Origin: Nitrosopumilus sp.
GTDB taxonomy: Archaea > Thermoproteota > Nitrososphaeria > Nitrososphaerales > Nitrosopumilaceae
Direction: 5' to 3'
Assembly: GCF_025699255.1 (NCBI RefSeq)
Contig: NZ_JAILWA010000005.1
Coordinates: 1 to 64,000 of the forward strand
DNA length: 64,000 nt
Part shown: positions 32,513 to 51,516 of the stretch, in pieces
How the letters are laid out: every line of letters starts with the position of its first letter
Position numbering within the stretch: the first letter of the stretch is position 1
Notes under the pieces: generated by a model
Database searches by the model: none
What the model saw: the letters and a program-made list of their open reading frames with translations, nothing else
What the model was told of the DNA's origin: nothing
Made by a program: the position numbers and the translations under genes

Positions 32513-32617
32513 ATGAAGTACAATTGTAGAGAATGCAAGTTCAAATGGGAAGGAAGTACTGATTCATTTTATGCTGTATTGGAACATGAAAAAACCCATC
32601 AAAATTTGACAAAATAA
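32513..32617 (+). CDS. C2H2-type mini zinc finger, family B (34 aa)
   Basis: MKYNCRECKFKWEGS is followed by a short spacer and LEHEKTH: CxxC and HxxxH ligands in 34 residues. The layout K-Y-x-C-x2-C-x-F-x-W ... H-E-K-x-H is the same in the genes at 50138 and 50337, so this is a repeated family. Confidence 0.58.
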   Translation: MKYNCRECKFKWEGSTDSFYAVLEHEKTHQNLTK

Positions 32618-46723: not shown

Positions 46724-46803
46724 TTTTTTTAAAATACAATTTGGGTATTATTCTGGGATTATTTGGTAAAAACATCTTAAACAATATTGAAGTTTATTTT
46801 TCA

Positions 46804-48081
46804 ATGACAAGAACGAAACTTATGGGAATGTCTGTAACAATTCTATCAATATCTTTGATGGCTTTGTTTGTTCAACCTTCAGAAAATGTCTCACAAGAAG
46901 TGTTTGCAGAACAAAATTCTATGATACAAGATTCTATACCAATGATAGGGCAGATTCAATCACAAGAAAACATTTCAGTAGAATTCAATGTGCCTGAAAT
47001 AATTGTAGCAGGGAAATTAGTTCCAATTAACGCAAAAGTTGTTGATTCCAATCTCGATGCAAATCTTTCACATACTGATTGGGCATATGCAATAATTGGT
47101 CTTAATGGAGAAATTGTTCATAAAACCACCACACTTCATGGGCATTTTGGAGTAATGAACTTTAAAGATAGTTTTCCTGAAGCTGGAACATATACGATAA
47201 AGTATACTGTGTCCTCATCTGGACCTTTCATGCTTGGGTTACCAATACCCGAACTAGGTCAAACAAGAGCAGTAGTATCAGGAGACATATTGAAATTTGA
47301 GCAAGACCCAAAGAACAATTTTGGTTCAAGAACCTTTGAATTTTCAGTAGATGTAGTTAATCAAGGAAAAACTATTGCTTTAGCAGGTTCTCAACCTGAT
47401 ACTGAAGTCTTAGTTAAGTTCACTACAAAACCTGAAAGAATTGTTGTAGGACAACCAACTACTATACTCATTGACGTAAATGATGCAAAAACTGGAGAAG
47501 ATGCAACCCATGTAGATGGCCAGTTGACTATTAGCAGAGGATACTATCATTATCCATCATCTTCTGCAGACCAACCCGATGCACCAATTCCATTACATGG
47601 TGCATATCATGGTCACAAAGGTGCAATGGCAACTACACATACATTTTCACAACCCGGAACATACTTGATTACAGCAGATTTGAGTTCCATACCCTACTCA
47701 ATACCAAATTTTGGTGAATCCTCAACCCTATTTGTAATTCAAGTTCATGAAAATGAGGAGACCTCTCAAATCATGCAAAGCATGAGACCTGTAGAAAATG
47801 TAAAAGAAAATGCCGTTGACATTGTAGGATTGGAATCTCCATTTTATGTTCCAAATATGATCAAAGTGACTTCTGGCCAAACTATTACCTTTGATAATGT
47901 GGATGGAAATCAACACACTGTCACATCTGTTAAATCTGGAACTACTGAATTTGATGGAAAGTTTGATAGCAGTCTTTTGCAACCTGGAGAAAAGTTTGAT
48001 CTAACTCTCAATGAGAAAGGAACGTATGACTATTTTTGTGCACTGCATACTAGTATGCAAGGAACAATCATAGTTTCCTAA
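46804..48081 (+). CDS. Secreted protein with C-terminal plastocyanin-like copper domain (425 aa)
   Basis: ATG 46804 gives the signal peptide (LMGMSVTILSISLMALFV). Two or more beta-sandwich domains follow. The last ~85 residues are a cupredoxin (SPFYVPNMIKVTSGQTITFDNVDGNQHTV, in parts) with type 1 copper ligands H (NQHTV), C, H and M in YFCALHTSMQG. It is probably a cell-surface electron carrier or copper protein, as is common in ammonia oxidisers. Its 3' end overlaps the convergent microprotein operon by 14 nt. Confidence 0.82.
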   Translation: MTRTKLMGMSVTILSISLMALFVQPSENVSQEVFAEQNSMIQDSIPMIGQIQSQENISVEFNVPEIIVAGKLVPINAKVVDSNLDANLSHTDWAYAIIGLNGEIVHKTTTLHGHFGVMNFKDSFPEAGTYTIKYTVSSSGPFMLGLPIPELGQTRAVVSGDILKFEQDPKNNFGSRTFEFSVDVVNQGKTIALAGSQPDTEVLVKFTTKPERIVVGQPTTILIDVNDAKTGEDATHVDGQLTISRGYYHYPSSSADQPDAPIPLHGAYHGHKGAMATTHTFSQPGTYLITADLSSIPYSIPNFGESSTLFVIQVHENEETSQIMQSMRPVENVKENAVDIVGLESPFYVPNMIKVTSGQTITFDNVDGNQHTVTSVKSGTTEFDGKFDSSLLQPGEKFDLTLNEKGTYDYFCALHTSMQGTIIVS

Positions 48082-48253
48082 TTTTCTTTTTTTTATTTTT
48101 CTGACTATCATAATCTGCAATGCATTTGCTACAAAGATAAGCAGGATCAGTAAGGAGATTGATGCTAGCTTGTAGGTTATCTTTTGATTTACAGCACATG
48201 CAAAATTTTTCTTTATTTGCTTTCTTTTTCACTTGTATCGAACAATTACTCAT
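48068..48253 (-). CDS. Cys-rich microprotein (61 aa)
   Basis: Contains KEKFCMCCKSKDN and AYLCSKCIADYDS (CxxCC...CxxC) and a Lys-rich end. Last of three overlapping Cys-rich genes on this strand; overlaps the previous one by 8 nt. Confidence 0.6.
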   Translation of the reverse strand: MSNCSIQVKKKANKEKFCMCCKSKDNLQASINLLTDPAYLCSKCIADYDSQKNKKKKIRKL

Positions 48254-48470
48254 TACTCATATTAGAAGTGTGACTAGGATCATTTCTAACTGCTTCTCTG
48301 GCCCTCTTTTCAATATTTACAATAAATGAATCTCTACACCCTTGAGAACAAAATTTTTCTCTATCCCCTTCAAAAGATTTTCCACAATGTACACAAATCA
48401 TTTCCATTTTTCTATGATTCATCTCACACCTCATAAAAATAGATGGTTTACTCGGATTATCTTCTTTCAT
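48246..48470 (-). CDS. Zinc-finger microprotein (74 aa)
   Basis: Contains MICVHCGKSFEGDREKFCSQGCRDSF, a C-x2-C-x12-C-x3-C finger (quoted parts: CVHCG, FCSQGC) resembling MYM/DUF2116-type treble clefs. Also an N-terminal RCEMNHRKME. Overlaps its neighbours by 4 and 8 nt. Confidence 0.65.
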   Translation of the reverse strand: MKEDNPSKPSIFMRCEMNHRKMEMICVHCGKSFEGDREKFCSQGCRDSFIVNIEKRAREAVRNDPSHTSNMSNE

Positions 48471-48652
48471 GCAGTCATTTGTTTTTGCTGATGTTTGATG
48501 GCACTAACAGTATACAATATGTTATCTCCTTCAGGCATTGGGTTTGCACACTGACCACATTCAGGCAATATCACAGTTGCATCATAATCAATTTCTCCTA
48601 TGGTTTTTCCACAGCTTCTACAACAAACTGATTTTGTATCATAAATATTCAT
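48467..48652 (-). CDS. Zinc-ribbon microprotein (61 aa)
   Basis: The ATG at 48652 is preceded at 6 nt by GGTGA, a good ribosome-binding site, and so is preferred over the ATG at 48679. Contains VCCRSCGKTIG and PECGQCANPMPEG, a four-Cys ribbon. First gene of the three-gene coupled operon. Confidence 0.65.
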   Translation of the reverse strand: MNIYDTKSVCCRSCGKTIGEIDYDATVILPECGQCANPMPEGDNILYTVSAIKHQQKQMTA

Positions 48653-48771
48653 TTTTTCACCTTTTGAATATTCTACCATGATTTTGATATTAAAGGAGGA
48701 GAGAAATTGATTTCATTTAGAATCAAGTCAACTTGTTATCTCTTTAATTCCATCATCTCATAATATCACCC

Positions 48772-49152
48772 ATGAACAAAGTAAAACTTGTAGATCAAGA
48801 AAAATTCCTAAATAGCATCATGAATGTTTCAGCAAACATACGATATGTCATGATTTATGATTTGAAAGGAAATGTGATTCATAAACGTAAAATGGATGGA
48901 GTGACAGATTTGCTAACAGAAGAAGAAAATAAAACTGCTTTAAAGCACACTATAGAGTCTTGGAACTTTAGAAATACAATTTCAGAAAAAATTGGAAATG
49001 CAAATTATACACTACAGGTATATGACAACTTGATGAGATGTATTTTTCCATTTGGTGAGGAAATGCTTCTCATAGTTACACTGGATAATGCTGGAGGTCC
49101 AAATAATATTATTCATAGGATCCAGACCATCTTGTCAGGGCATTTGAAGTAA
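48772..49152 (+). CDS. Hypothetical protein, roadblock/longin-like (126 aa)
   Basis: A soluble alpha/beta protein: NIRYVMIYDLKGNVIHKRKMDGV, then a helix, then MRCIFPFGEEMLLIVTLDN. The strand-strand-helix layout recalls roadblock/LC7 folds, but I cannot assign a family with certainty. Thaumarchaea carry many paralogues of this kind. It is divergent from the zinc-microprotein operon. Confidence 0.58.
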   Translation: MNKVKLVDQEKFLNSIMNVSANIRYVMIYDLKGNVIHKRKMDGVTDLLTEEENKTALKHTIESWNFRNTISEKIGNANYTLQVYDNLMRCIFPFGEEMLLIVTLDNAGGPNNIIHRIQTILSGHLK

Positions 49153-49162
49153 TATTGCAACC

Positions 49163-49261
49163 ATGAATACAGCTAGATCCTACTATCAAAAAATTTGCTC
49201 AGACTGTAAGAGAGTGCATTGCAGAGAAGGATGTAATTGTGATTGTCATTGGGAACCTTAA
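49163..49261 (+). CDS. Cys-rich microprotein, family A (32 aa)
   Basis: Encodes ...KICSDCKRVHCREGCNCDCHWEP: seven Cys and two His in 32 residues. The CxxC...CxCxC layout recurs at 50245 and 50504. It follows the 126-aa gene by 10 nt. Confidence 0.55.
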   Translation: MNTARSYYQKICSDCKRVHCREGCNCDCHWEP

Positions 49262-49268
49262 GATAATT

Positions 49269-49388
49269 TTGGCAAATAGTTTACTGACTACAAAAACTTG
49301 TTATCACGATGCTAAAGTCAAGATGGCAGGATACAAGGATATGTATGAATGCACACGTTGCCACAAATTTATCCACTTATCAAATTAA
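49269..49388 (+). CDS. Small Cys/His peptide (21-39 aa)
   Basis: TTG 49269 or ATG 49323 starts a frame ending MYECTRCHKFIHLSN, with one CxxCH knuckle. Start uncertain; chance ORF not excluded. Confidence 0.32.
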   Translation: MANSLLTTKTCYHDAKVKMAGYKDMYECTRCHKFIHLSN

Positions 49389-49467
49389 AAATTTGATAAA
49401 TAAATTGTAGATTCATCTACTATTTGGGATTAGGTGATATATTTTCCAATCTGACTCTTATTCTCAT

Positions 49468-49617
49468 TCATTCACCGTGAACTCGAAGATCCTTATCAAT
49501 ATCCAAAATTTTCCATTTTTTGCCAAACAAGGTTAGCGTTTCAAATTCTTTCATCTTGTTTACAAGATGTTTTGGCAAATCATCAAAACTATCATATTTC
49601 ACCAATTTTTTCAGCAT
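49468..49617 (-). CDS. Small hypothetical protein (49 aa)
   Basis: Encodes LVKYDSFDDLPKHLVNKMKE, then LTLFGKKWKILDIDKDLRVHGE. A coherent alpha/beta look and no Cys. Overlaps the ORF at 49592 by 26 nt. Confidence 0.45.
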   Translation of the reverse strand: MLKKLVKYDSFDDLPKHLVNKMKEFETLTLFGKKWKILDIDKDLRVHGE

Positions 49618-49675
49618 TATTTTCCCAGCAGGTAAATCTTATCTCTACTGCTTCAAGGAACTCCTCATCAGGCAT
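49592..49675 (-). CDS. Possible small ORF (27 aa)
   Basis: Encodes MPDEEFLEAVEIRFTCWENN and a few residues more. It may be a fragment of a longer gene, since the frame upstream (WKEICLKNT) is also protein-like. Confidence 0.25.
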   Translation of the reverse strand: MPDEEFLEAVEIRFTCWENNAEKIGEI

Positions 49676-49715
49676 TGTGTTTTTTAAACAAATTTCTTTC
49701 CAATCTTGCTTGAAA

Positions 49716-49901
49716 TTATGAGACGTTTAAGTGCTGAATTTCCTGATTTACCTGTTCTGATACAGTCTTTTCATTAGATAATGCATCACGATATTTCAAG
49801 AATGTTACAGTATCCATTTTAGCTTGGAAAAATAGAAATTCTAATTCTAATCTTTTTAATCGATTCATCTCTGCTAATTCTTCTTCTATTCTTTTTGACA
49901 T
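49716..49901 (-). CDS. Small coiled-coil protein (61 aa)
   Basis: Encodes MSKRIEEELAEMNRLKRLEL followed by an aromatic helix and Glu/Gln-rich end. No family recognised. Confidence 0.5.
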   Translation of the reverse strand: MSKRIEEELAEMNRLKRLELEFLFFQAKMDTVTFLKYRDALSNEKTVSEQVNQEIQHLNVS

Positions 49902-50023
49902 AATTGTATTAGAAAATCATTGCACTTAAGGATGCATATTTTTTTGCATTGTTGATAATCTGTATTAATCCTTGGATTTTGCCATATTACGTCGGTATAT
50001 ATCAGAGATAAACTAGATAAAGT

Positions 50024-50137
50024 ATGTTTAAAAAAATACTTGGAAAATTGAAATTTGGTTCTTACAAAACTAAAGCCACTGACGTAAATTCATTTGCAGA
50101 ATCTGAGACAAAGAATCCAGAGGATTTAGAAAAGTAA
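50024..50137 (+). CDS. Small basic protein at the head of the microprotein cluster (37 aa)
   Basis: Encodes MFKKILGKLKFGSYKTKATD and an acidic end; amphipathic N-terminus. Its stop touches the TTG of the next ORF. A TATA-like ATATATC lies ~25 bp upstream. Confidence 0.45.
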   Translation: MFKKILGKLKFGSYKTKATDVNSFAESETKNPEDLEK

Positions 50138-50245
50138 TTGACATATCATTGCAAATATTGTAGTTTTACTTGGGATCCAGTGGAAGGTAATATACAAAAA
50201 TTACTTTTACATGAAAAGACTCACAAAGAGAGAGTTTTAGCATAA
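50138..50245 (+). CDS. C2H2-type mini zinc finger, family B (35 aa)
   Basis: Start is TTG 50138, immediately after the preceding stop. YHCKYCSFTWDP then LLHEKTH: CxxC plus HxxxH. Same family as 32513 and 50337. Overlaps the next ATG by one base. Confidence 0.58.
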   Translation: MTYHCKYCSFTWDPVEGNIQKLLLHEKTHKERVLA

Positions 50246-50340
50246 TGGTAATTTGTAATAAATGCTATAACGAACATCATGATCAATGTATGGGGAAAGC
50301 TGGAATGTTTGATTGCGAGTGCAAGTGTTTTAAAAAATGA
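50245..50340 (+). CDS. Cys-rich microprotein, family A (31 aa)
   Basis: Encodes VICNKCYNEHHDQCMGKAG then DCECKCFKK: CxxC, HH, C and CxCxC. Start overlaps the previous stop (TAATG), end overlaps the next start (ATGA). Confidence 0.58.
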   Translation: MVICNKCYNEHHDQCMGKAGMFDCECKCFKK

Positions 50341-50468
50341 AATATCAATGCTCTGAATGCGATTTTCATTGGATTGGTACCTCATATACCTTTGATGAGG
50401 TACGCGAACACGAAAAAATCCACTTGAAAAAGAATAAACCTAAAACAATTAGGACTAATTTTTCATAA
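50337..50468 (+). CDS. C2H2-type mini zinc finger, family B (43 aa)
   Basis: MKYQCSECDFHWIGTSYTFD then VREHEKIH and a basic tail. CxxC and HxxxH ligands; closely parallels 32513 over the whole finger. Confidence 0.62.
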   Translation: MKYQCSECDFHWIGTSYTFDEVREHEKIHLKKNKPKTIRTNFS

Positions 50469-50503
50469 AAAAAGGGGAAATACTATAACATACTTGGTGA
50501 TGT

Positions 50504-50599
50504 GTGTCAAATCAACTATACTGTGAAGTATGTCACAAACTAAAATATCCAAGATTTGCCAATCAAAGTAAATGCGAATGCAAGGAATCTATTCTTTAA
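50504..50599 (+). CDS. Cys-rich microprotein, family A (31 aa)
   Basis: GTG start with GGTGA five nt upstream. Encodes LYCEVCHKLKYPRFANQSKC then ECKESIL: CxxCH and CxC. Confidence 0.5.
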   Translation: MSNQLYCEVCHKLKYPRFANQSKCECKESIL

Positions 50600-50641
50600 T
50601 TTAAAAATCTGACTTAATAGCAATGAAGTGTTACATAATTC

Positions 50642-50890
50642 ATGAAGATTAGAAAAAATATGACAAAAGAAAAATGGAAATCTGAAAAGGAAGTTTTGAA
50701 ATCTCAAAAGGCCATGCTAAAAGCTAGCGAAGCGGAAATTGATGCAAAAAGAACTGCAACAAAAATTGGTAGTCCGCAAAGACTTGCCCTAACAAAAAAA
50801 CGAAAAGCAATCAAAATCAAATTAGACAAATGGAAAGCTAAAATGTCATTATGGAAAGCCGAAAAAGCTATTTGGGATTCAAAACACTAG
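50642..50890 (+). CDS. Lys-rich coiled-coil protein (82 aa)
   Basis: A highly basic helix with Trp/Lys repeats (TKEKWKSEKEVLKSQKAMLK, KLDKWKAKMSLWKAEKAIW). No signal peptide. Nucleic-acid binding is possible from charge alone. It is the last plus-strand gene of the microprotein cluster. Confidence 0.55.
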   Translation: MKIRKNMTKEKWKSEKEVLKSQKAMLKASEAEIDAKRTATKIGSPQRLALTKKRKAIKIKLDKWKAKMSLWKAEKAIWDSKH

Positions 50891-50972
50891 TTACACTTAG
50901 CACAGATTAGAATAAAAAAATCATAATCCAAAATGTTTCTAATTTATGTAAATAATAAAAAGAAATTTGTTG

Positions 50973-51122
50973 CTAACCGAAGATTCCGCTAGCAACAGAG
51001 TATGCTCCAATTCCAATTCCCATTACTACACCGATTCCCATGCAGATGAGGTCGAATTTTACAACCTTTTTGAAGGGAGCATGAACCATTTTATCCCAAT
51101 TTGAGATTTGTTGTGATTTCAT
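50973..51122 (-). CDS. Small membrane protein (49 aa)
   Basis: A basic N-terminus (WDKMVHAPFKKVVKFD) and one glycine-rich membrane helix (LICMGIGVVMGIGIGAYSVA). It resembles small single-pass subunits of membrane complexes, but I cannot name one. Two palindromes lie in its upstream region. Confidence 0.6.
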   Translation of the reverse strand: MKSQQISNWDKMVHAPFKKVVKFDLICMGIGVVMGIGIGAYSVASGIFG

Positions 51123-51164
51123 GATTATTGTTAGTTCTAGTTAGCAATAGAGTATAGTAAGCTT

Positions 51165-51189
51165 GTCAGCTGACTTGTCAACATGTTGA
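51165..51189. promoter_or_regulatory. Two adjacent palindromes
   Basis: GTCAGCTGAC (51165-51174) and TCAACATGTTGA (51178-51189) are perfect palindromes between the divergent small membrane gene (51122) and the zinc microprotein gene (51272). Confidence 0.5.
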
Positions 51190-51271
51190 TTTTTATTTTT
51201 TAATTAGCTTTATCTAATTAGCTTCTTCTAATTTTAGAACGATTTTTAAATAATTTTTACTAAACTATTAC

Positions 51272-51451
51272 ATGAACAACAAATCATGTCAAATATGTTC
51301 TTCTTCATTAGAAGTTGAAAGCACATGCAAATTTTGTGATGAACCAACACGACTATTTTGTCATACATGTGGTGTAATGGCTGAAAAAACAGCACATCCA
51401 GCTTGTATGGTAATTGATGTAAATAGAATGTTGTTGGAAACTACACAATAA
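51272..51451 (+). CDS. Double zinc-knuckle microprotein (59 aa)
   Basis: Four Cys pairs: CQIC, CKFC, CHTC and a final HPAC. The layout (C-x2-C, x9-11, C-x2-C, x8, C-x2-C, H, C) matches the protein at 55832, so they are paralogues. B-box or double-ribbon fold likely. Confidence 0.65.
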   Translation: MNNKSCQICSSSLEVESTCKFCDEPTRLFCHTCGVMAEKTAHPACMVIDVNRMLLETTQ

Positions 51452-51516
51452 TTTTTTCATTTTTTATTCCTGTAAATGTTAATTCAAAATTATGTTTGAT
51501 AAAATACCCCAAATTT

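Follow-up and report, generated by a model that had tools for sequence, protein, structure and literature searches.

The 64,000-nucleotide stretch of DNA analyzed here (the window) carries a genuine, conserved, and translationally coupled operon of four microprotein genes, C-B1-A-B2, with a conserved promoter of its own. We put at about even odds (a probability near 0.5) that its products bind zinc and serve the expanded TFB/TBP/Alba machinery as an accessory module, all produced together from the operon's promoter; metal binding is predicted from invariant Cys and His residues. Ammonia-oxidizing archaea (AOA), which rank with the most numerous cells of the ocean, have many TFB and TBP copies, and a set of unannotated, conserved, putative zinc microproteins that lies next to such genes and has its own promoter is a concrete, testable candidate for selecting among them. 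The repeated presence of such an operon near spare TFB, TBP, and Alba copies points to a level of gene control in archaea that has been overlooked. Literature searches returned no account of the operon or its microproteins.

Architecture of the operon

An earlier note on this DNA had listed five ORFs of 31-43 aa, starting at 49163, 50138, 50245, 50337, and 50504, and a solo relative at 32513; all are present at those coordinates (Table 1). It had also described 50138, 50245, and 50337 as coupled through TAATG and ATGA junctions, and this reading holds: B1 and A meet in TAATG (50243-50247), with a 1-nt overlap, and A and B2 in ATGA (50337-50340), with a 4-nt overlap. What had been overlooked is a fourth coupled gene, C, whose stop codon is flush with the start codon of B1 (gap of 0 nt). 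That start codon is TTG in the window copy and ATG in relatives. A reading of the region as non-coding RNA was dropped, as an Rfam scan of 48500-51500 returned no match.

Table 1. Features of the operon and related elements in the window
Feature	Position	Strand	Remarks
Solo family B copy, 34 aa	32513..32617	+	Without C or A
Family D, 32 aa, six Cys and one His	49163..49261	+	CxxC-x4-C-x3-CxCxCH
Coil protein, 61 aa, MSKRIEEELAEMNRLKRLELEFLFF...	49716..49901	-	No known family
Dedicated promoter core ACGTCGGTATATA (consensus RCRYCRGTATWTA, BRE/TATA-like)	49989..50001	+	~23 nt 5' of the C start codon
Family C microprotein, 37 aa, MFKKILGKLKFGSYKTKATDVNSFAESETKNPEDLEK	50024..50137	+	N-terminus basic amphipathic, tail polar
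Family B copy B1, 35 aa, single C2H2-like zinc finger (predicted)	50138..50245	+	CxxC-x16-HxxxH
Family A, 31 aa, CNKCYNEHHDQCMGKAGMFDCECKCFKK	50245..50340	+	dN/dS 0.20; 80 unique homologues
Family B copy B2, 43 aa, single C2H2-like zinc finger (predicted)	50337..50468	+	Beta-beta-alpha in the AlphaFold model
Family E, 31 aa, four Cys, YCExCHKLK..KCEC	50504..50599	+	GTG start

Distribution, gene order, and selection

Homologues of A and B occur across one archaeal family, the Nitrosopumilaceae, which bears out the earlier argument that these ORFs are not due to chance. B was found in 22 of 61 relatives with a four-sequence B profile and A in 19 of 61 with a single A sequence as the query, and in this first survey 19 of 20 clear A matches started within ~15 nt of a B stop codon. 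A survey of 398 genomes from the phylum found A in 41, B in 34, and both in 27, all of them in one family. The named genome records gave 66 A loci, labeled Nitrosopumilus, Nitrosarchaeum, Nitrosotalea, Nitrosopumilaceae, or unclassified Thaumarchaeota, with two of the 66 labeled Nitrososphaeraceae. A and B co-occur across relatives, and they do so as neighbors; the lack of co-occurrence that the earlier note had named as refuting its reading was not seen.

Pooling unique genes from all loci read gave 51 C, 95 B, and 80 A genes. Nearly every C (50/51) lies directly upstream of a B, more constantly paired with it than any other gene, and B lies upstream of half of the A genes (40/80), the remaining 40 having no B upstream. 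Junction gaps cluster overall at -4, -1, 0, and +1: those between C and B at -4, 0, and +1, those between B and A most often at -1 (TAATG, n=21), and four of the five cases of B after A at -4 (ATGA). The full order of the window, C-B-A-B, recurs at L154, L155, L069, and L070. The system is therefore not the two-component unit proposed in the earlier note: the pair seen most often is C-B, many A genes stand alone, and D and E lie nearby. The loci had been picked via A or B, and C was consequently also searched for alone in 20 genomes. All 28 matches were upstream of a B, 27 of them within ~25 nt and one at 242 nt; comparison by eye found no C in the searched genomes without a B match (G021, G162, G323, and G033). 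One C gene (L164, 2734) has an expanded KDKSKDKSKDD / CCSS repeat tail.

The earlier note had set a dN/dS near 1 against its own reading. Pooled values were 0.20 for A, 0.42 for B, and 0.45 for C (simple Nei-Gojobori, pairs with unsaturated differences); a high dS (0.77-0.97) and the pooling of paralogues make them rough, but they are still well below 1 and indicate purifying selection. Third codon positions vary most.

The protein families

Family B follows the pattern Y-x-C-x2-C-x-F-x-W...H-E-K-x-H, and its ligands C5, C8, H25, and H29 do not vary in either of two alignments (21 and 25 sequences). The AlphaFold model is beta-beta-alpha (E2-4, E11-13, H20-32), with pLDDT >90 for residues 1-30. 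Foldseek matches to solved structures were mostly C2H2 fingers, and their weakness (E above 4) is what a chain of 30 residues would be expected to give; against the Pfam C2H2 models nothing rose above cut-off (best E ~0.06-0.1). Judged by its ligands and predicted fold, B is C2H2-like and is placed in no named Pfam family. Like the classical C2H2 finger, including the prokaryotic Ros type, it has CxxC...HxxxH, an aromatic core, and a predicted beta-beta-alpha fold. However, the whole B protein is one finger of 29-43 aa, where Ros is a larger protein; its x16 spacing is longer than the usual x12, and it has a conserved F-x-W and HEKTH. B1 also gave a rubredoxin-like match that did not reach the cut-off (E 0.019); we discarded it, as B1 has only two Cys and its relatives are predicted to fold as C2H2. 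Some B proteins (L169, L189) have a natural C-terminal extension with two extra CxxC pairs.

The "family A" of the earlier note, defined by CxxC...CxCxC, lumped three families together: A (50245), D (49163), and E (50504). Nor is CxCxC fixed in A, where the last Cys slides by one to give CxCxC or CxCxxC. The motif of A is CxxC-x4-HH..C..CxC; C4, C7, H12, C15, C24, and C26 are invariant, with QCMGKAGMF between, and zinc binding would be expected of A as it is of B. D (CSDCKRxxCxxGCNCDCHWEP) shares CxC motifs with A, and both have six Cys and 1-2 His in ~31 residues. A search of 20 genomes yielded 37 D copies, spread over 17 of them, with ~16 of the copies within 1 kb of a B when compared by eye. 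E has 13 members including the window ORF; they were sought only in loci already collected, so the linkage of E to B and A is not an unbiased result.

No convincing known family was found for A, C, D, or E (Pfam for A, D, and E; NCBIfam, PHROGs, and PADLOC for all four), and assignment of the operon proteins to a known domain was likewise abandoned for want of a convincing Pfam, NCBIfam, or PHROG match. PDB profile searches gave chance-level matches only, and the predicted model of A (pLDDT 59) was not usable. By these comparisons, A, C, D, and E are four protein families absent from every library searched. Ordinary gene callers may overlook them because they are only ~29-38 aa long. Decaying A copies, with Cys lost or truncated, stand beside intact C and B at L083 (5633) and L155 (6758), which suggests that some copies can do without A.

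A dedicated promoter

The consensus given in Table 1 has exactly two matches in the 1.65 Mb genome, C5:49989 and C15:15954, each 5' of a C gene, while the reversed-pattern control gave none in the same genome. In most loci, an element near AATTACGCCGGTATATATC lies ~20-40 nt 5' of the C start codon, and this closeness makes it probable that the operon mRNA is leaderless. Over 24 other genomes the whole pattern is not rare: it matched 35 times, only a little more often than the reversed control. There, the stricter GTATATA form nearly always lies 5' of C or B, and it was not found in those of the 24 genomes that have no B match. The solo A genes of Nitrosarchaeum have a similar element, ACGTCGGTATTTATC.

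The match on the C15 contig of the same genome belongs to a second C-B unit with a promoter as in the window (L007, 15720-15966). The same contig has an Alba-B-A run (L007, 18472-18958).

Linkage to TFB, TBP, and Alba genes

When neighboring ORFs were clustered, TFB and TBP were the most frequent families, with Alba next; the TFB, TBP, Alba, and LSm identities were confirmed with Pfam. Several arrangements recur. Alba-B-A-coil-TFB runs on one strand at L065, L068, L073, L077, L156, and L158, and in Alba-B runs B starts immediately after the Alba stop codon. A-coil-TFB-B is found at L157 and TFB-LSm-B-A at L081 and L100. Solo A genes are divergent from TBP, often with TFB behind, at L067, L076, L078, L088, L090, L113, L116, and L119. 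CBA clusters face TBP-TFB at L103, L124, and L161 and are divergent from it at L155, and C-B stands beside other TFBs at L173, L189, L190, and L169.

Up to 1 kb from A clusters, TFB, TBP, and Alba genes have a density of 0.26 per kb; farther out in these loci, at the control distance of 4-8 kb, it is ~0.02 per kb, about ten times lower. The window's own genome has 8 TFB, 3 TBP, and 4 Alba genes (15 in 1649 kb), so chance alone would place one within 1 kb of ~2.5% of sites. Once loci that shared two neighbors had been collapsed, 14 of 46 site groups had a TFB, TBP, or Alba gene in at least half of their members (p ~4e-12 at the 2.5% background), a value that is optimistic because some site groups are still related and not fully independent; with a looser collapse on one shared neighbor, nearly all loci fall into one group. 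In a TFB tree, the neighboring TFBs span at least five clades, which argues against a single duplicated segment. Clusters without TFB, TBP, or Alba within 2 kb number 56 of 89 with A and 31 of 42 without A. The 64-kb window itself has no TFB, TBP, or Alba gene; the sole hint of a TFB link for this copy is the coil homologue on the opposite strand, whose relatives elsewhere sit between A and TFB.

This repeated linkage favors a function on the nucleic-acid side, one of the two options (metal or nucleic-acid binding) raised in the earlier note. AOA have 4-11 TFB and 2-5 TBP copies (PMC7554672). These copies have been proposed as global regulators, and a TFB switch accompanies N. maritimus biofilms (PMC7554672, PMC12448741).

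Proposed function and alternatives

If the operon is an accessory module of this machinery, C, B, and A would be produced together from one, probably leaderless, mRNA. B would contact DNA (or TFB/TBP) through its single C2H2 finger, and A would be a second small Cys/His zinc module made with it. C, as a basic amphipathic-helix peptide, would tether or dimerize B. Against the proposal, a lone C2H2 finger is usually a weak DNA binder. Together, the products may modulate the action of particular TFB/TBP/Alba paralogues at promoters, and the private core promoter could let the operon respond to one TFB/TBP pair or to its own B. We infer the joint complex, the contact with DNA or TFB, the autoregulation, and the role in transcription from gene content and context. 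A more specific form of the proposal, in which a C-B-A(-B) complex redirects specific TFB/TBP/Alba paralogues and one such pair recognizes the RCRYCRGTATATA core promoter, is speculative and somewhat doubtful. If true, it would describe an archaeal promoter-selectivity device built wholly of 30-43 residue zinc proteins.

The Cys- and His-rich make-up of A and D and their CxC motifs would also fit metallothionein-like or copper/zinc chaperone peptides, with A, D, and E buffering metal, B serving as a sensor or second ligand, and the operon responding to Cu or Zn. AOA are strongly copper-dependent, and a cupredoxin gene with a plastocyanin-like C-terminal domain lies ~2 kb 5' of the operon (46741-48081, + strand). 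However, cupredoxins are abundant in the genomes of this group, so a single nearby one proves little, and the identified recurring neighbors include no metal transporter, chaperone, or CopC/CopD, whereas TFB, TBP, and Alba do recur. Short and Cys-rich as A and D are, neither matched a metallothionein model above cut-off in Pfam or NCBIfam, and A has one compact six-Cys set with an invariant His and strongly conserved non-Cys residues (QCMGKAGMF) of a kind that typical metallothionein-type chelator peptides lack. With B a C2H2-like finger as well, metal buffering seems to us unlikely. Mobility would account differently for the linkage: a fast-turning module (a selfish element, an anti-element regulator, or toxin-like peptides) may accumulate with duplicated genes such as TFB. 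B varies in site and in copy number (1-7 per genome), degenerate copies exist at L083 and L155, an HNH gene and a ribbon-helix-helix-like gene lie near the C15 copy, and B-like proteins are encoded on three viral contigs, of which one also has a portal-like gene. Those contigs have no A relative, though, B2 matched none of 50,697 phage records, and a PADLOC match was absent. The linkage extends over the different TFB clades with fixed gene orders repeated, and A is strongly conserved by its dN/dS, all of which makes a mobile module decidedly improbable.

Independent zinc microproteins that bind nucleic acid or RNA as stress adaptors, and that do not interact directly with TFB, TBP, or Alba, could lie near those genes simply because such regions are rich in regulatory genes; LSm is among the neighbors too. 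Such proteins have a precedent in the C(P)XCG mu-proteins of Haloferax volcanii, which are, like the window microproteins, archaeal, shorter than 70 aa, and predicted to have a single zinc site, and several of whose deletion mutants have stress or biofilm phenotypes (PMC6562870, PMC10716476, PMC11241148); swarming phenotypes are also described for these one-domain zinc-finger proteins (PMC6562870). The Haloferax proteins are of a two-motif C(P)XCG type, however, whereas B is C2H2-like, and a pair of CPxCG/CxxCG motifs is absent from every sequence in the alignments of A, B, C, D, and E. The available portions of those descriptions mention neither a coupled multi-microprotein operon nor linkage to TFB, TBP, or Alba. 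The same-strand runs with Alba and TFB, in which the Alba stop codon abuts the B start, also speak against independent proteins, and we hold this to be the least probable of the alternatives. By its description, Brz, the zinc-finger bop regulator of Halobacterium salinarum, is a comparably tiny archaeal zinc protein that regulates transcription; it is reported from a single intergenic gene, whereas the window genes form a coupled set (Tarasov 2008, via PMC6562870).

Viral and other small Cys-rich genes

A viral origin was rejected: IMG/VR held no A relative and only three weak B relatives (47-55% identity), and B2 had none in the phage records. An anti-phage defense system was likewise rejected, as PADLOC gave no match for A, B2, C, D, E, or the coil protein. 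The three IMG/VR contigs (L129, L130, and L131, from 8001) encode a B-like finger followed by a CxFCGC motif. The portal-like gene is on L131, and a B relative may therefore be carried by a tailed virus.

Other small Cys-rich genes lie on either side of the operon. On the minus strand at 48068-48679, less than 2 kb away, three overlapping Cys-rich ORFs of 61, 74, and 70 aa make up a further coupled group of putative small zinc proteins; the second of the three bears a weak resemblance to a treble clef (zf-FCS/DUF2116). On the plus strand at 51272-51451 lies a Cys-rich protein of 59 aa, whose relatives are conserved near C-B clusters (L083, L169, L173, L189, L190) and near solo A genes (L066, L075).
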